Of a stretch of 52,486 nucleotides of DNA, positions 1,614-52,437 are shown one piece after another. Both the position numbers and the translations under genes were made by a program. The notes under the pieces are model-generated. The model was not told the origin of the DNA, ran no database searches, and worked only from the letters and a program-made list of their open reading frames with translations. Numbering within the stretch: the stretch's first letter is position 1; every line of letters begins with the position of its first letter. This DNA comes from an uncultured Chloroflexus sp. (GTDB lineage Bacteria > Chloroflexota > Chloroflexia > Chloroflexales > Chloroflexaceae), in the NCBI RefSeq assembly GCF_937129525.1, contig NZ_CAKZNK010000023.1:1-52486 (forward strand). The letters run 5' to 3'.

Positions 1614-3089
1614 TTATGTCGAAATAGGAAATAACCGCTCAAGTGCAGTTGATCCCAACGCCGCCGCAACGTGATCAGCCCATCGATCGAATGGATCGAC
1701 CGATGGCGTCAGCTCGGCTGGTGGTTGCCAGCCGAGCTGACGGAGCCAGCCGCGCCGAAACTCATCATTGGCAAACAGTCCGTGCAGGTAGCAACCCCAC
1801 ACCCGACCATCGGGGCTGAGACAGCCATCGTCCTCTGCGATTGGTTCGTGGCCGCGCCGAACGAGACGCAGCAACGGTTGCGCCGCGCCGAGGCGACGAC
1901 TGCGTCCCATGTGAATCTCGTATCCGCGCAGAGGCCCGGCGCCAGCCCAGGTTACGAGCGCATGCGCCTCGGTTTGCGTTGTCTGTTTTTCGGCGGCAAA
2001 GACGGTCTCGACCGGCAACAGACCCAGGCCTGCGTCCTCGCCACCGTCACCCTCTACGGCAAGCGGATCGCTGATCCGTTCACCGAGAAGCTGGTAGCCG
2101 CCACAAATCCCGACTATCGCCCCGGGGAAACAGCGCAGAGCCGCATCAAACCCTTGCTCGCGCAGCCAGCGCCGGGCAGCAAGGGTGTGTTTGGTGCCGG
2201 GTAAGATCACCGCTGCCGCGCCGGTTAATTCTGCTGGATGGTCGATGTAGCGCACGGTAACGCCTGGTTCATGGGCCAGCGGATCGAAGTCGTCGAAGTT
2301 GGCGATGGCCGGCAAGCGGATGACGGCAATCGTCAGACTACCTGATCCGAAAGCGGCAGTCTGATCAAGCGCCACTGCATCCTCTTCGGGCAGAGCGAGA
2401 TCGGTCAACCATGGTATGACGCCTAACACCGGCAAGCCGCTCCGCTCTTCCAGAATCCGCACACCATCGATAAAGAGCGCTGGGTCGCCACGAAAGCGAT
2501 TGACAATCAGGCCTTCAACCAGTCTGCGCTCTTGCGGTTCAAGCAGCATCAGGGTGCCGAGCAATTGAGCAAAAATCCCGCCACGATCGATGTCTCCCAC
2601 CAAGAGTACGCGGGCCTGGGCATAGACGGCTACCCGCATATTGACAATATCACCCGCCTTGAGGTTGAGTTCGACCGGACTGCCGGCTCCTTCCACAATC
2701 ACCAGATCGTATTCGGCGCGTAGCGCAGCGAGGTTGCGCGTGACAACCGACCACAAGGCTGCCTTGCGTTGCCAGAAATCGGCAGCATCGAGGGTATGCC
2801 ATGGTTTGCCTTCGACGATGATCTGACTTCGGCGCGATCCTTCTGGTTTGATCAAGATCGGATTCATGGCGACAGTGGGCGCAATACCGGCAGCGGCAGC
2901 CTGCATAGCGGTACTGCGCGCGATCTCGCCACCATCGGCAGTGACAGCGGCATTGTTGCTCATGTTTTGGGCTTTGAATGGCGCGACCCGGAGACCACGC
3001 CGGGCCGCCAGCCGGCAGAGGGCCGCGACCAGCACACTCTTGCCAACTGACGAGGCCGTGCCGACAACCATTAAGACGGGCGCAGGCAT
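1614..3089 (-). CDS. cobQ: cobyric acid synthase (CbiP/CobQ)
   Basis: This glutamine-dependent amidotransferase amidates the b, d, e and g side chains of adenosylcobyrinate a,c-diamide to give adenosylcobyric acid. The product has 491 residues, the usual family length. The N-terminal dethiobiotin-synthetase-like domain has the P-loop G-T-A-S-S-V-G-K-S near residues 10-18 and the F-K-A-Q-N-M-S-N-N segment. The C-terminal class I glutaminase-like domain has Cys329 in G-I-C-G-G-Y-Q and His436 in C-Y-L-H-G. The ATG at 3089 follows a GGGGGAA ribosome site, and the family's M-P-A-P opening supports it over in-frame starts at 3119 and 3242; the latter would overlap cobD. It is the last gene of the riboswitch-controlled operon. 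Confidence 0.95.
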
Positions 3090-3157
3090 AGAAATTCCCC
3101 CGTAGATACGAATGCTCATTCCAAATTGATCAAATGTTCCTGCGCAACGCGCGCGAT

Positions 3158-31420: not shown

Positions 31421-31441
31421 GTAGTTTTGATTCAGCACTAC
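31421..31441 (+). promoter_or_regulatory. inverted repeat GTAGT-N11-ACTAC, bchM leader copy 1
   Basis: The exact 5-bp arms are spaced by 11 bases and followed by A. The element starts 14 bases after the bchM -10 box, so it overlaps or directly follows the transcription start. The bchN leader has the same arrangement with a 13-base gap. Confidence 0.7.
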
Positions 31442-31501
31442 ACATTCCGGCTCAATCAAGTGTGGCAATAACCTCCTGGCAAGCACTCATTCTTTGTGAA
31501 C

Positions 31502-31522
31502 GTAGTTCCAAGTTTGGACTAC
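31502..31522 (+). promoter_or_regulatory. inverted repeat GTAGT-N11-ACTAC, bchM leader copy 2
   Basis: Second copy in the same leader, 81 bp after copy 1 (close to eight helical turns). It ends 22 bases before the bchM GTG and 9 bases before its AGAGGAG ribosome site. The inner bases (CCAA / TTGG) add further self-complementarity, so it could also fold in the RNA. Confidence 0.7.
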
Positions 31523-31544: not shown

Positions 31545-32225
31545 GTGCTTGAGATCTCGCAGCACAAAGCTCAACTGCGCGAGTATTTCAACGGTTTGGG
31601 CTTTGAGCGCTGGTCAGCCATCTACGGCAACGCCCCGTTGTCGCTTGTTCGTCAAAGCATTCGCGAAGGCCACAACCGCATGTTAGCAGTCGCCGATGCA
31701 TGGCTGGATGATCAACCACCGCCAACTACTGCGCTCGATGTCGGCTGTGGGGTCGGTCTGTTCAGTCTGATGCTGGCCCGCCGTGGCTATCGAGTGCGCG
31801 CCGCCGACATCGCGCCACAAATGGTGGCAGCCACCCAGCGTGCTGCCGCTGAGGCCGGCCTGGCCGACCGGATCGAGTGCATCGAGGCCGATATTGAATC
31901 GCTGCGCGAACCGGCGCAGGTGGTGGCCTGCTTTGATGTGCTGATCCACTACCCGCAGCCGGCATTTGGCCAGCTTTGCACCCATCTCGCGGCTCTGACC
32001 GGCCACACCTTGCTCATGACATACGCGCCATACAGCACATTGCTCGCCGCTTTGCACCGGATCGGTGGCTGGTTTCCCCACAGTCAACGGCGCACCGAAA
32101 TTCAGATGATTCGCGACCAGGAAGTGGCGGAAATACTGGCTCGCGCCGGTTTGCGAGTGCAACGAAGCCAGCCGATCCGTAGCAGGTTTTATCACGTTAC
32201 GCTGATCGAGGCCCGACGGGCCTGA
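31545..32225 (+). CDS. bchM: magnesium-protoporphyrin O-methyltransferase
   Basis: BchM methylates the C13 propionate of Mg-protoporphyrin IX with SAM, giving the monomethyl ester used by AcsF. The product has 226 residues from GTG 31545 behind AGAGGAG. It opens with Y-F-N-G-L-G-F-E-R-W-S-A-I-Y-G, typical of BchM/ChlM, and the SAM motif A-L-D-V-G-C-G-V-G-L-F-S is near 63-74. The V-L-I-H-Y-P region and the C-terminal S-R-F-Y-H-V-T-L-I-E also match the family. It is followed after 45 bp by a small gene and acsF, so it heads a Mg-branch operon. Confidence 0.95.
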   Translation: MLEISQHKAQLREYFNGLGFERWSAIYGNAPLSLVRQSIREGHNRMLAVADAWLDDQPPPTTALDVGCGVGLFSLMLARRGYRVRAADIAPQMVAATQRAAAEAGLADRIECIEADIESLREPAQVVACFDVLIHYPQPAFGQLCTHLAALTGHTLLMTYAPYSTLLAALHRIGGWFPHSQRRTEIQMIRDQEVAEILARAGLRVQRSQPIRSRFYHVTLIEARRA

Positions 32226-32237
32226 TTTGATAAGGTC

Positions 32238-32258
32238 GTAGTTCAGAAACGAGACTAC
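32238..32258 (+). promoter_or_regulatory. inverted repeat GTAGT-N11-ACTAC between bchM and the small gene
   Basis: Third copy of the element. It ends directly against the AAGGAG ribosome site of the next gene and 12 bases before its ATG. No promoter is obvious between bchM and this copy, so here the repeat may act in the mRNA. Confidence 0.7.
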
Positions 32259-32270
32259 AAGGAGCGAGGC

Positions 32271-32606
32271 ATGCGACGATTGTTAGCTGTAATGGCCCTT
32301 GGCGCAGCCTTCTTCGCGCTGCACAAGTGGTACAACCGCGAGGTTTTGCTGGAGGGTGAGGGGTTTGTTCGCTTGCAGAGCGAACATGAGCATTTCCACT
32401 TCCACGTTGATTTGCCCCCCGGTATGGAGATTCAGCCCGGCGATACGCTTGAGATCATGCACCTGCCACCGACCGAAGACGGTCGCACGAATGGCGAGAT
32501 CTGCTACCGCAGCCCCATCCGGCTGTACAAAGCGAGCTGGTTGCGCCGTTTCCTGACCAAGAAGAGCAGTCTCGTAGAGATCAACGAGCTGGTGGAACAT
32601 CCGTAA
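32271..32606 (+). CDS. small membrane-anchored protein of unknown function next to acsF
   Basis: The 111-residue product starts at ATG 32271 behind AAGGAG. Residues 1-16 form a hydrophobic signal anchor (L-L-A-V-M-A-L-G-A-A-F-F-A-L). The rest is soluble, with a His-rich strand E-H-E-H-F-H-F-H-V-D (38-47), P-G-D-T-L-E-I near 56-62, and a basic W-L-R-R-F-L-T-K-K (90-98) before an acidic end. I do not recognise the family. It lies between bchM and acsF, is preceded by the GTAGT-N11-ACTAC repeat, and ends 69 bp before acsF. Accessory proteins of the oxygen-dependent cyclase are known in purple bacteria (BciE) and cyanobacteria (Ycf54); an analogous role is inferred from position only. Confidence 0.8.
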   Translation: MRRLLAVMALGAAFFALHKWYNREVLLEGEGFVRLQSEHEHFHFHVDLPPGMEIQPGDTLEIMHLPPTEDGRTNGEICYRSPIRLYKASWLRRFLTKKSSLVEINELVEHP

Positions 32607-32675: not shown

Positions 32676-33803
32676 ATGTTCTGGATCAGCCCGTTGATGA
32701 TGGAAATGCCCGGCGAGTTTAGCCGCACCACTCGCCATGCGCTCAAGGAGGCCATTCTCTCGCCTCGCTTCTACACCACCGATTTCAAGGCTATCGATAA
32801 GCTCGAGATCGATCGCAACGGTCTGCGCGACGAGTTTGACTGGATCCGCGACGAGTTCGCTTACGACTACAACCGCACCCACTTCCGGCGAACCGATGAG
32901 TTCTTGCAGAATTTCGATGATATGCCTGAGCGCGATGCGTTCATCGATTTTCTCGAGCGCTCATGCACGGCTGAATTTAGCGGTTGTCTGCTCTATGCCG
33001 AAATGGTTAAGCATCTGCACGATCCGACCATGAAGGCGATTTTCAAGTATATGAGCCGCGATGAGGGACGCCACGCCGGCTTCCTCAATCGCACGATGGC
33101 CGACTTGAATGTCGCGCTCGATCTGACCGTCTTGCAGAAGCGCAAGAAATATACCTATTTCCAGCCCAAGTTTATCTTCTACTCGGTTTATCTCTCTGAG
33201 AAGATCGGTTACTCGCGCTACATCCACATTTATCGTCATCTTGAACAGAATCCGCAGTACTGCATTCACCCGATCTTTAAGTGGTTTGAGCAGTGGTGCA
33301 ATGACGAGTACCGCCACGGTGAATTCTTCGCTTTGTTGATGCGCTCGCAACCCGAAATGCTGCGCGGCGCGAATTTGCGCTGGATCCGGTTCTTCCTGCT
33401 CGCGGTGTACGCGACGATGTACCTGAACGACGCGCGTCGGGCCAATTTCTACGCCGCTCTCGGGCTGCACTGGCGCGATTACGATCAGAAGGTTATCCGA
33501 CTCTGCAACGATATTTCTACCCAGGTCTACCCTGAAACGATGAACCTCGACGACCCACGCTTCTTTGGTTACATGGATAAGCTGGTCGAATACGACCGCA
33601 AGCTGCGAGAATTAGAGGGGCGCAATGATCCTGTGGCACTGGCTCAGTCAGCTCGCCTGAAAGCGGCGATTGCGCTGCGGCTGCTGGCTATCTACCGTCT
33701 GCCAACCCGCAAGACAACCGAAGCGATCCGCTGGAAGGGGTTGCCTGGCTTCCCCAACTACCCCGGTCCTAACCGGACACCGCGGGTCGCCGCAGCCGAC
33801 TAG
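32676..33803 (+). CDS. acsF: Mg-protoporphyrin IX monomethyl ester oxidative cyclase, oxygen-dependent
   Basis: AcsF is the diiron enzyme that builds ring E with O2, giving divinyl-protochlorophyllide. The product has 375 residues from ATG 32676, which follows AAAGGAG; an earlier start at 32616 is unlikely. Family marks: S-P-R-F-Y-T-T-D-F near 29-37, then iron ligands E100 (T-A-E-F-S-G-C), E130 and H133 (D-E-G-R-H-A-G-F), and E211 and H214 (D-E-Y-R-H-G-E). It uses the product of bchM. The enzyme fits aerobic or microaerobic growth; the anaerobic BchE is not in this window. Confidence 0.96.
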   Translation: MFWISPLMMEMPGEFSRTTRHALKEAILSPRFYTTDFKAIDKLEIDRNGLRDEFDWIRDEFAYDYNRTHFRRTDEFLQNFDDMPERDAFIDFLERSCTAEFSGCLLYAEMVKHLHDPTMKAIFKYMSRDEGRHAGFLNRTMADLNVALDLTVLQKRKKYTYFQPKFIFYSVYLSEKIGYSRYIHIYRHLEQNPQYCIHPIFKWFEQWCNDEYRHGEFFALLMRSQPEMLRGANLRWIRFFLLAVYATMYLNDARRANFYAALGLHWRDYDQKVIRLCNDISTQVYPETMNLDDPRFFGYMDKLVEYDRKLRELEGRNDPVALAQSARLKAAIALRLLAIYRLPTRKTTEAIRWKGLPGFPNYPGPNRTPRVAAAD

Positions 33804-37000: not shown

Positions 37001-37760
37001 AACGCTTGAAGAAGCGGCGATCCGCGTCTTTGCCAACGCGCCCGGCAGCTACGGCGCAAATGTGAACTTCCTGGTCGAAAGTGGAACCTGGGAGAGTGAA
37101 GATCAGTTGAGCGATGCTTTCCTGTCCCGCAAGAGTTTCGCGCGAACCGCCAGTGGTCAGTGGCGCGAGGCGCGCGGTCTGCTTGAAGGGGCATTGCGGC
37201 ACGTGCAGGCGACATTCCAAAACATTGACAGTTTTGAGGTTGGTCTGACCGACATCGACAACTACTACGAAAATCTCGGCGGTGTCGCCAAGAGTGTGGA
37301 GCGACTGCGTGGTGAAGCGCCGCCGGTGCTGGTCGCTGACGCGATTAGCGCGCCTGGCGCCAGTCGGATCGCCTCGATTGAGACGATGCTACGGCTTGAG
37401 ACGCGCGCCAAGCTGCTGAATCCGAAGTGGCACGAGGCCATGCTGGCGCATGGCTTCGCCGGGGTGCGCGAGATCGAAGCTCGCGTCAACCATACGTATG
37501 GCTGGAGCGCGACTGCCAATGCCGTGGAAGGCTGGATTTACGACGAGATTGCGGCAACCTACGCGCTTGATGACGCAATGCGTGAACGCATGGCCGCGCT
37601 CAATCCAGCCGCCGCCGCCGGGGTCGTGCGCCGCTTGCTCGAAGCTGCCGGACGCGGCTTCTGGGCCGCCGATGAAGCGACGCTCAATCGCCTGCAAGAG
37701 ATATATCACGATCTCGAAGATCGGCTCGAAGGCATTACAGAAGAGAGGAGTGTAGGATGA
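34023..37760 (+). CDS. bchH: magnesium chelatase subunit H
   Basis: BchH binds protoporphyrin IX and, with BchI and BchD, inserts Mg2+. The product has 1245 residues, the usual length, from ATG 34023 behind GTGAGGA. It shows the family's first-domain start M-H-F-V-V-L-T-I-D-G-N-H, G-N-T-S-H-L-E-A, H-L-G-T-H-G-A-M-E-F-M-P-G-K, and G-R-P-R-I-D-V-V-V-T-V-S-G-I-F-R-D. H-G-A-M-E-F separates it from the CobN-type gene at 21070, which has H-G-T-L-E-W. Its stop overlaps the start of the transporter gene (ATGA). Chelatase subunits I and D are not in this window. Confidence 0.95.
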   Translation: MHFVVLTIDGNHRPALLAAADRLRREHKVTLSLAVYDATMLRDAAGWAQLDRDLAKADFIFGARLFSEDLVRPLIGRLARCEQPTLIITSNPALIRCTRIGGFSLRRESETEPGPLRRWVQKLRPQGGAGEARRQLAILRNLSKVLKVIPGTSRDLYTYITSHQYWLNASPENLYRLLCVLISRYGPQPRPKLPQLDPLSYPDTAIYHPDAPELFASLQDYRRWRGKRIPGGGKVGILTLRTVVLSGNTSHLEALARAIEARGLEARIAYAAGLDMRPLLEKELADVDLLVNATGFALVGGPAESQPQQAAEALIRFDRPYLGLVPLAFQRLDDWHADDNGLAPVQQALSVAIPELEGAAEPMIFGGPAADGQRFAPAQAEIDQIAERIARRVALRQTPNAQKRLAVVIYNFPPSLGTVGTAAYLDVFASLYNLLQALAADGYRVEVPHNVDELRRLLLADGPAHGADAHIADWLSADEYRRLFPHYTEIEPYWGPAPGELLRDSRGIRILGRHFGNIFIGVQPSFGYERDPMRLLLAKDAAPNHAFAAFYTWITHKFRADAVIHLGTHGAMEFMPGKQVGLSARCWPLRLIGPLPNFYVYSVNNPSEAAIAKRRGAATLVSYLVPPVQQAGLYKGLRALRDAIEQYERNPDPALAADLRDRAAQLGIPMENSGDERADVAGLAHELLRIEQRMIPLGLHVLGQPPAPAELADFLFLYASLQPDGGLPALIARGMGIDYQQLCARLSNDLTAQNQLRAIEARGRAAMLAYAEAPDAAAGARAAAAQLADLTPETALRPLWPKLAELRNGLLTNHELRNLLHGLRGGFIPPSPSNDAVRNPAVLPTGRNLFALDPYRVPTPAAMQRGEALAHELASRLRAEQGRWPESIAIVLWGTDNLKSDCEGVAQVLALMGARPVIDELGNVADVTLRPLSELGRPRIDVVVTVSGIFRDLLGNQMRLIDRAAYLAAVADEPPEWNFVRSHALAQMAETGITLEEAAIRVFANAPGSYGANVNFLVESGTWESEDQLSDAFLSRKSFARTASGQWREARGLLEGALRHVQATFQNIDSFEVGLTDIDNYYENLGGVAKSVERLRGEAPPVLVADAISAPGASRIASIETMLRLETRAKLLNPKWHEAMLAHGFAGVREIEARVNHTYGWSATANAVEGWIYDEIAATYALDDAMRERMAALNPAAAAGVVRRLLEAAGRGFWAADEATLNRLQEIYHDLEDRLEGITEERSVG

Positions 37761-39055
37761 GCTGGTTTAAGATGATTCGTCTTGGCATGCTCCATGTCGC
37801 TGTTGCCATCAGTTTAGTGCCAATCACCGGCGTTCTTAACCGGATCATGATTCACGAACTGGGCATCATGGCCAGTGTAGTCGCGGCGCTCATCATCCTG
37901 CCGCATCTCTTCTCGCCGATCCAGGTCTTCATCGGCCAGTTCTCCGATCGCCATCCGATCGGCGGCTATCGGCGCACGCCGTATATTGCCCTCGGCATCT
38001 TGCTCTGCGTCATCGGCGCGGCGTTGACGCCATTTGCCGCCTTTGCCATGGATGCCAGCTTCTGGCCGGGGCTGGCGCTGGCACTGCTCATCTTTGGCAT
38101 GTGGGGCGTCGGTTTCAACACGGCGGTCGTCTCGTATCTCTCGCTGGCGAGCGATATGTCACCCGCGCATCTGCGCTCGCGAACCATCGCGGTGATGTGG
38201 TTTATGATGATTACCGCCGTGATCGGCACTGCGATCGGAGCGGGACGCGCGCTTGAGCACTACACGCCTGAGCGTCTGATCGAAGTCTTCGCGATCTGCG
38301 CCAGCGTTGCTCTGACTATTGCCACGTTGGGACTGATCGGACTTGAGCCGCGCAACGCTACACCGGTTAGCCACGAAGAGCGCCACAGCGCCGTTGACTC
38401 GGTGCGCACTGTGGTCGCCGATCCGCTCGCCCGCCGGTTTTTCATCTATCTGATGCTCATGCTCTCGGCGATCCTCGGTCAGGATGTGCTGCTTGAACCC
38501 TATGGCGCAGCAGCTTTTGGCATGAGTGTGCGTGAAACCACCCAGTTGACGGCAACATGGGGTAGCGCAACGCTGCTTGCGCTGTTGCTGCACGGCATCT
38601 TGTTTAGCCGCTGGCTGAGCAATAAGCGCGGCGCAATGCTGGGTGGCGCTATTGCTGCAACCGGTCTCACACTGATCGCGCTGAGCGGGATCCTGCGCCT
38701 GCAACCACTGTTTGTGCCGGCAGTCGCAATTCTCGGTTTCGGCACCGGTATCGCCACTGCCACAAATCTGGCATTGATGCTCGACATGACAACACCGCAA
38801 CAAGTCGGTCTGTTCATTGGCGCATGGGGTGTCGCTGACGCTGCCGCGCGCGGTCTGGGCAACCTGCTGGCCGGGATGATCCGCGACCTCACTGCGCTGG
38901 TTGCCGGCCCAACCGGCTCTTACGCTACCGTATTCCTGATCGAGGCGCTGATCCTCGGTGTCGCGCTGGTTATGCTGCGCGCTATCGATGTCAGCGCATT
39001 CCGCAGTCAGCGCCGCGAGCTGGGTCAACTGGTTGCGGTCATGGGAGATGCATAG
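37757..39055 (+). CDS. BCD-family (PucC/LhaA-like) transporter
   Basis: The 432-residue product has about 12 hydrophobic helices and belongs to the major facilitator superfamily. The family mark F-S-D-R-H-P-I-G-G-Y-R-R-T-P-Y lies near residues 61-75, a hallmark of the BCD group, which helps deliver bacteriochlorophyll or assemble light-harvesting and reaction-centre complexes. The start overlaps bchH by 4 bp, so it is translated with the chelatase. What it moves here (chlorophyll, an intermediate, or an assembly role) cannot be told from sequence. Confidence 0.9.
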   Translation: MSWFKMIRLGMLHVAVAISLVPITGVLNRIMIHELGIMASVVAALIILPHLFSPIQVFIGQFSDRHPIGGYRRTPYIALGILLCVIGAALTPFAAFAMDASFWPGLALALLIFGMWGVGFNTAVVSYLSLASDMSPAHLRSRTIAVMWFMMITAVIGTAIGAGRALEHYTPERLIEVFAICASVALTIATLGLIGLEPRNATPVSHEERHSAVDSVRTVVADPLARRFFIYLMLMLSAILGQDVLLEPYGAAAFGMSVRETTQLTATWGSATLLALLLHGILFSRWLSNKRGAMLGGAIAATGLTLIALSGILRLQPLFVPAVAILGFGTGIATATNLALMLDMTTPQQVGLFIGAWGVADAAARGLGNLLAGMIRDLTALVAGPTGSYATVFLIEALILGVALVMLRAIDVSAFRSQRRELGQLVAVMGDA

Positions 39056-47141: not shown

Positions 47142-47162
47142 GTAGTTCCAAATCGGCACTAC
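47142..47162 (+). promoter_or_regulatory. inverted repeat GTAGT-N11-ACTAC in the bchN leader
   Basis: Fourth copy of the element. It begins 13 bases after the -10 box and ends 5 bases before the GAGGAGG ribosome site and 16 bases before the bchN ATG. In this short leader the same repeat takes both the start-proximal and the ribosome-site-proximal positions that the two bchM copies occupy separately. Confidence 0.7.
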
Positions 47163-51615: not shown

Positions 51616-52437
51616 ATGTCCATCATCCTCGCGATCTATGGCAAGGGTGGGATCGGCAAATCGACCACCTCAGCCAACCTCTCAGCAGCAATGGCGCTCA
51701 AAGGCGCCAAAGTGCTCCAGATCGGCTGCGATCCGAAGCACGACAGCACCTTTCCGCTCACCGGTCATTTGCAGCCGACCGTCATTGACGTGCTGGATAG
51801 CGTCAATTTCCATCTGGAAGATGTGAGCAAAGAAGATGTGATCCACACCGGCTTTGCCGGCGTCGATACGCTCGAGTCAGGCGGCCCGCCAGCCGGTAGT
51901 GGCTGCGGTGGTTATGTGGTTGGCGAGACGGTTAAACTGCTGAAAGAGTTTGGTCTTTATGACAAATACGATGTGATAGTGTTCGACGTGCTCGGTGACG
52001 TGGTGTGTGGCGGTTTTTCCGCGCCGCTCAACTATGCCGACTACGGTCTGATCATCGCCTGCAACGATTTCGACAGCATCTTCGCGGCCAACCGGCTATG
52101 TCTGGCGATTGCGCAGAAATCGCAGCGCCACAAAGTCAAGCTGGCCGGGATTATCGCCAATCGGGTCGATTACGAATATGGTGGCGGCACCAACCTGCTT
52201 GACCAGTTTGCCGAGAAGGTGGGCACAAAGATTATTGGTCGGGTGCCGTACCACGATCTCATCCGCCGATCACGGCTCGCCGGCAAGACGCTGTTTGAGA
52301 TGGAAGGGCCTGGCAAAGAGGAATGCACCCGCCCCTTCGAGGAGATGGCCGAGTACCTGCTGGCCCAACCGCAGGCGACGGTACCGAATCCCTATCACGA
52401 CCGGGCTATCTTCGAGGCGATTGGTGGCTGGCGATAG
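51616..52437 (+). CDS. bchL: dark-operative protochlorophyllide reductase iron protein L
   Basis: BchL is the NifH-like ATPase that passes electrons to BchN-BchB. The product has 273 residues from ATG 51616, behind GAAGGAG; the frame open from 51397 overlaps bciB and is not used. The P-loop G-K-G-G-I-G-K-S-T is at 9-17, switch I near D-P-K-H-D-S-T, and the cluster cysteines are C97 (G-S-G-C-G-G-Y) and C131 (D-V-V-C-G-G-F). The stop codon lies in the first unit of a heptanucleotide repeat array. Confidence 0.97.

Follow-up and report, generated by a model that had tools for sequence, protein, structure and literature searches.

Background

What does a protein of 111 residues, encoded between bchM and acsF in Chloroflexus, contribute to the formation of ring E, the step that makes chlorophylls green? 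The question is raised by a single locus in the window, by which we mean the whole stretch of 52,486 nucleotides analysed here, from an uncultured Chloroflexus sp. A first-pass annotation of that DNA had proposed an accessory factor of the cyclase AcsF and had left two alternatives for its origin: a factor new to this lineage, or a distant relative of BciE, which we take to be RSP_6110, a gene adjoining acsF.

The answer bears on how cyclases are classified. The available text of one study distinguishes three classes, a Ycf54-dependent class, a BciE-dependent class found in alphaproteobacteria, and an AcsF-only class (PMC7319587). In the accessible part of a 2026 review, AcsF is given as the sole component in Betaproteobacteria, Gammaproteobacteria, Acidobacteria and Chloroflexi (PMC13297055). 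Reviews, these two included, assign Chloroflexi to the AcsF-only class.

A conserved coding gene upstream of acsF

The open reading frame begins with ATG preceded by AAGGAG, and its location between bchM and acsF (Table 1), as first annotated, is confirmed by the reading frame itself and by the NCBIfam matches of both neighbours. The start of acsF is the most likely ATG, picked by reading the sequence. Across four pairs of Chloroflexus sequences, between 42 and 73 of the 333 bases of the small gene have changed, mostly at third positions, as against 3 to 9 residues of its product, and dN/dS is approximately 0.02-0.03 in the three Chloroflexus pairs where dS is computable; this is therefore a real coding gene under strong purifying selection. 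Its closest named relatives, in Chloroflexus islandicus and other Chloroflexus records, are 97% identical. Searches of Pfam and NCBIfam with the 111-residue protein matched no family, and when 24 sequences drawn from both branches of the family discussed below were used, no Pfam or NCBIfam family was matched by many of them, the best E value being 0.0009 and the hits scattered over unrelated families.

Table 1. Coordinates, within the window, of the gene under study, its neighbours, the parts of its product and the nearby palindromes
Feature	Position	Strand	Details
BciE-like gene (proposed cyclase auxiliary/maturation subunit)	32271..32606	+	111 aa
bchM, Mg-protoporphyrin IX methyltransferase, makes the cyclase substrate	31545..32225	+	NCBIfam TIGR02021, 207 bits
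acsF	32676..33803	+	TIGR02029, 429 bits; PF02915, 124 bits
Residues 1-21, hydrophobic N-terminal anchor, basic residues at its start	32271..32333	+	Missing in alphaproteobacterial relatives
Residues 31-62, conserved core VxLQSEHEHFHxHVDLPPGMEIxPGDTLEI	32361..32456	+	H45, V46, P56, G57, D58 common to alphaproteobacterial proteins
Residues 75-111, G-E, (K/R)-A-S-x-L basic segment, C-terminal E-L-x-E motif	32493..32603	+	Shared invariants G75, A88, E106, L107
Palindrome GTAGT-N11-ACTAC, candidate operator upstream of the gene	32238..32258	.	9/10 other genomes
Two more palindrome copies upstream of bchM (31421-31441, 31502-31522)	31421..31522	.	

Co-occurrence and linkage with acsF

Among 82 genomes of the order Chloroflexales, profile searches find an intact copy of the gene in 37, and these are the same 37 genomes that carry acsF. 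In every one of them the gene directly precedes acsF and shares its contig and strand, with 39-353 bases between it and the point where the AcsF profile match begins. The first-pass annotation had named absence of the gene beside acsF in relatives as evidence that would count against its proposal; within the order, all 37 acsF-bearing genomes have the gene. Conversely, none of the 82 genomes belongs to a phototrophic relative that keeps the gene and has no acsF, if the broken acsF of genome G023 is set aside. In that genome (71% complete) an intact copy of the gene is adjacent to an acsF match in three overlapping-frame pieces (L025, G023:C269:9606-10587), either an assembly fault or an early stage of decay in which the gene has outlived acsF, and we counted it as acsF-bearing. 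Weak or short profile matches were not counted as intact; these are the remnant in G056, matches in G108, G363, G386 and G409, and a contig-end fragment in G432. The last of these (G432:C554:3-107, L097; profile positions 1-36) is a second fragment of the gene besides the intact copy in the same genome, possibly the result of strain mixture.

The window's own genome and 60 relatives form a smaller set in which the gene is found in 32 of 61 genomes, the same 32 that hold AcsF, with only fragments in one of them (G027). BchM scores above the cut-off in 43 of the 61, to which we added G022, where BchM is in two pieces and falls below the cut-off, making 44 genomes with bchM. The gene is intact in 31/31 of these that carry acsF, and in 0/13 of those that have no intact acsF (Fisher 1.9e-11, uncorrected for kinship). 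Because all 44 bear bchM, phototrophy alone is not the explanation. In three genomes (G016, G021 and G031) bchM is on a separate contig, and the gene is still found beside acsF. A mere passenger of phototrophy, such as a reaction-centre or antenna assembly factor linked to acsF by chance, would not be expected to be missing from all 13 of the bchM genomes in question, and no puh gene is present among the named neighbours in the window. We therefore regard the passenger explanation as distinctly improbable, even though puhB, puhC and puhE, the neighbours of the alphaproteobacterial counterpart described below, are annotated as photosynthetic-complex assembly proteins.

The gene and acsF also decay together. 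Using the AcsF of the window and of G034 as queries, we found pieces of both genes in G027, between bchM and bchH (L068, about 2622-3119): the C-terminal part of the small gene (approximately residues 67-111) is kept, along with abutting N- and C-terminal pieces of acsF, i.e. the two genes carry separate lesions. In G056 (L070, about 2898-3089) an N-terminal piece of the gene continues directly into a C-terminal piece of acsF and the upstream palindrome is retained, as if a single deletion had removed the middle of the pair. Four genera (g6, g11, g14 and g23) each mix genomes that have both genes with genomes that have no intact copy of either, which suggests several losses, subject to the caveat that genes may be missing from, or spuriously added to, draft assemblies.

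In the phylum at large, an even draw of 400 Chloroflexota genomes from a larger group contained AcsF in 22 (21 above the cut-off), and the gene is alongside in all but one of these, counting the fragment in G027. The exception, G315, belongs to another family of the class and encodes a divergent AcsF (335 bits; L075 1483-2589 / L093 9315-10421, minus strand). No relative of the gene was detected near this AcsF, nor anywhere in the G315 genome when the joint profile was run with an E limit of 1, and a search of the same genome for Ycf54 (PF10674) also gave none. The AcsF of G315 may belong to another class. Co-occurrence with acsF across Chloroflexota, which the first-pass annotation had proposed to check, stands throughout the order (37/37) and breaks down at the divergent, lone AcsF of G315.

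Relationship to alphaproteobacterial BciE

In alphaproteobacteria, bciE has been placed between puhC and acsF (PMC10576062). Our search by way of AcsF for alphaproteobacterial plasmids with photosynthesis clusters reached 11 records, the eleventh being an unannotated one from a cyanobacterium. In 9/9 intact alphaproteobacterial loci, puhC and acsF flank a gene for an unnamed protein 96-98 residues long. The tenth record, from Sulfitobacter sp. THAF37, yields only a weak trace (E 0.8) upstream of an unannotated piece of acsF, and we left this decayed locus out of the alphaproteobacterial alignment (A2, 9 sequences). The plasmid in question, pTHAF37_b (L067), carries a decaying photosynthesis cluster in which the acsF match has no annotated gene. 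We assign the nine proteins to BciE on gene position, following the operon order in PMC10576062.

The Chloroflexales protein is homologous to these proteins at the bciE position. For the comparison we built an alignment (A1) from the 31 intact sequences that the 61 genomes supply, less the near-copies G001, G002 and G005, which gives 28 rows; it includes neither the fragment in G027 nor the six genomes identified subsequently (G276, G423, G425, G428, G431 and G432). The profile-profile comparison suggested in the first-pass annotation does produce a match: hhalign of the 28 Chloroflexales against the 9 alphaproteobacterial sequences, both shallow profiles with Neff of about 2, gives a probability of 95.0%, P 3.6e-8 and a score of 47.2; the 76 matched columns cover almost all of the soluble part of the protein. 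Removal of the anchor leaves the probability at 95.3%. None of 200 column shuffles scored above 20.6, and reversing the alignment gave 12.9. As further controls we used four proteins from the alphaproteobacterial operon, PuhB (12.6), PuhC (11.9), PuhE (16.1) and PuhA (26.6; 15.8%, P 0.0016), the last being the highest control, above the shuffles and far below 47.2. In a joint alignment of 24 rows (A5; 17 of the 28 from A1 and 7 of the 9 from A2), the residues H45, V46, P56, G57, D58, G75, A88, E106 and L107 are invariant.

The relationship is a distant one. The alphaproteobacterial proteins share 22-27% identity with the protein of the window, and a plain tblastn search with the Chloroflexus protein found no alphaproteobacterial gene, the plasmids giving two chance matches at E 5 and 7. 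Such values, and the low Neff, are what one might see if an independent small protein had come to lie beside acsF and the profile match were accidental. This, however, is very improbable in view of the distance between the observed score and all shuffles and same-operon controls, the colinearity of the match over nearly the whole domain, and the fact that the neighbour shared by the two settings is acsF. Membership of the BciE family thus appears well supported by sequence and position together, and of the two alternatives left by the first-pass annotation it is the distant BciE-like protein that profile-profile homology and strict co-occurrence and linkage with acsF favour.

The two genomic settings otherwise differ. 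As in alphaproteobacteria, the Chloroflexales gene is immediately upstream of acsF, and acsF is the only immediate neighbour that the settings have in common, the cluster being bchM-X-acsF-bchH in Chloroflexales (X being the gene under study) and puhC-bciE-acsF-puhE in alphaproteobacteria. In the AcsF tree, Chloroflexales form one group and alphaproteobacteria another, and with only two long-branch rows outside them the tree does not position either group with respect to the other or speak to joint inheritance.

Anchor, histidine row and topology

The three sequence features singled out in the first-pass annotation, a signal anchor, a His-rich strand and a basic patch, all recur among the orthologues. 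Each of the 28 aligned sequences has a hydrophobic stretch at its N-terminus, whose core is 15-17 residues long when counted from residue 4 to a conserved W-Y/F; H39, H41, H43 and H45 are invariant in the same 28/28; and conservation extends to the basic segment near K87-R93. The N-terminal anchor and the complete invariant histidine row distinguish the Chloroflexales protein from alphaproteobacterial BciE, with which it shares the H-V, P-G-D, G, A and E-L invariants; the anchor is missing in all 9 alphaproteobacterial proteins, 7 of which are in the joint alignment.

The orientation of this anchor is a complication. Net charge is +1 to +2 at the N-terminus in 28/28 sequences and -4 to +1 after the hydrophobic core, so that by the positive-inside rule the protein would be N-in/C-out and its domain would be extracytoplasmic, away from AcsF. 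At its length, the core may not span the membrane at all. Charges of this kind, together with an anchor that alphaproteobacterial BciE does not have, would be expected of a BciE homologue whose task has changed, the anchor bringing the domain to the outer membrane face or to some other partner, where it would act beside AcsF (on substrate, product or electron supply) and not in maturation. Since H45 is the only member of the histidine row invariant in both groups, the remaining histidines could serve metal or pigment, which would also suit a changed task. We nevertheless consider such a change unlikely, because the strict tie to acsF and the residues conserved in both branches fit the same partner, because inspection by eye shows no signal-peptide cleavage site, and because a membrane-spanning helix would ordinarily have a longer core.

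Structure prediction and comparison with Ycf54

AlphaFold models of the whole protein (from 6 sequences, pLDDT 73) and of the domain alone (from 4 sequences, pLDDT 71), both of intermediate confidence, contain an N-terminal helix, four strands, a short helix and a C-terminal tail of low confidence. No fold could be assigned, either from a Foldseek search with the model of the full-length protein, whose best E was 0.75, or from VIA-align with both models, where the best Z scores of 3.7 and 3.9 went to phage tailspike rows. A weak likeness to the FAD barrel of ferredoxin-NADP reductase and NOX-like proteins, which would favour an altered task and is tempting in view of the ferredoxin-fed cyclase of barley, has Z of 2.0-3.4, the range of unrelated folds, and we rejected it as within noise. 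Sequence searches of the PDB with either profile gave best E values of 1.8 and 0.38.

Ycf54 of oxygenic phototrophs resembles our protein in being small, of similar length, and in its role as we propose it, that of an auxiliary or maturation protein of the same enzyme. There is no detectable sequence relation, however: the Ycf54 family PF10674 has no match to the protein at a limit of E 10 and is found in 0/7 genomes searched, while the control, Synechococcus elongatus, was positive. (Ycf54 structures were absent from the VIA-align rows, which accordingly offer no proof against Ycf54.) The link to Ycf54 that had been raised for this protein finds no backing here, and we give a distant Ycf54 hardly any chance.

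A proposed role in AcsF maturation

Our preferred reading is that the protein is a membrane-anchored BciE homologue, probably one that serves AcsF as a maturation or assembly subunit. The conserved beta-rich domain (residues about 25-111) would bind AcsF and would aid its folding, the uptake of its diiron centre or its assembly into the active form, as Ycf54 does in barley, and the N-terminal hydrophobic helix would keep this maturation step at the membrane, where AcsF works. From the homology and the linkage we infer that the protein would be in physical contact with AcsF, would be required for activity, would take part in maturation and not in catalysis, and would have its domain on the cytoplasmic side.

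The barley enzyme provides the model. In the available text of PMC7570240, activity of the barley cyclase depends on co-expression with Ycf54, although the assay itself can do without that protein; Ycf54 hardly co-purified and its later addition was no help, and it therefore acts during production of the enzyme. The same text has ferredoxin as the source of electrons for the barley cyclase. AcsF proteins are described as membrane-bound in the accessible part of PMC7319587, and the AcsF of C. aurantiacus has been detected in chlorosome fractions, as given in the available part of PMC3150298. An anchored helper would suit a membrane-bound AcsF, but the charges flanking the core predict the opposite topology.

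Implications for the classes of cyclase

Unlike BciE, the Chloroflexales gene comes from a phylum listed as AcsF-only in the available text of the 2026 review (PMC13297055), and a putative BciE-type gene beside acsF does not fit that listing. In the literature searched, which included few subscription journals, the matches listed, in the text available for them, name no BciE relative in Chloroflexota. What is new here is an apparently anchored variant of BciE type in a phylum described as having none; BciE itself was already known. We lean, by a little, towards the view that the oxygen-dependent cyclase of Chloroflexales is a two-component system with a membrane-anchored subunit of BciE type, and not an AcsF-only enzyme. 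The cyclase of Rubrivivax gelatinosus, the AcsF-only example, has a catalytic subunit of the same family, and differs in being described, in the available part of PMC7319587, as working without an auxiliary subunit.

With the gene beside acsF in all acsF-bearing genomes of the order, the AcsF-only class may be misdrawn. If the two-component reading is true, the BciE/AcsF pair spans two phyla, by shared ancestry or by joint transfer, and the published three-class scheme needs to be redrawn, AcsF-only becoming either a derived state or a merely unexamined one. The gene also gives a named component for co-expression with the AcsF of Chloroflexus or Roseiflexus, and a second, distant branch of BciE from which the functional residues of the family might be read.

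A palindrome upstream of tetrapyrrole genes

The first-pass annotation had credited the gene with its own copy of an inverted repeat, and GTAGT-N11-ACTAC is indeed found at 32238-32258. The window contains four exact sites (starting at 31421, 31502 and 32238, and at 47142-47162) against 0.01 expected, and they precede bchM (twice), the BciE-like gene and bchN. Five exact sites exist in the whole genome, and the fifth (G000:C19:26647-26667, L094) precedes the likely start of hemN. A mirrored control pattern is found equally often, five times in all, so the number of palindromes is unremarkable; it is their placement that is remarkable, since the stretch that holds four of the five makes up 1.2% of the genome (post hoc binomial 9e-8).

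Among 10 other genomes checked, 9, from several genera, have the palindrome a short way upstream of the gene or of what remains of it, the miss being G011. Genome G010 has no acsF, yet palindromes (G010:C88:51148-51168 and 51941-51961, L072) precede both its bchM and the next gene, which is bchH-like; the site is therefore independent of acsF. All five exact sites of the window's genome stand before tetrapyrrole genes, and the palindrome is a candidate operator.

Expression data from C. aggregans put acsF and bchM in one diel transcription group, as given in the available part of PMC8004040, where the BciE-like gene is unnamed. Judging by the flanking tags in the text available, the gene would correspond to the locus tags Caur_2589 and Cagg_1284. 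Elsewhere in the window, a protein of 432 residues encoded between bchH and hemA (37757-39055), without an NCBIfam match at E 1e-30, looks by eye like a membrane protein of the PucC/LhaA type.
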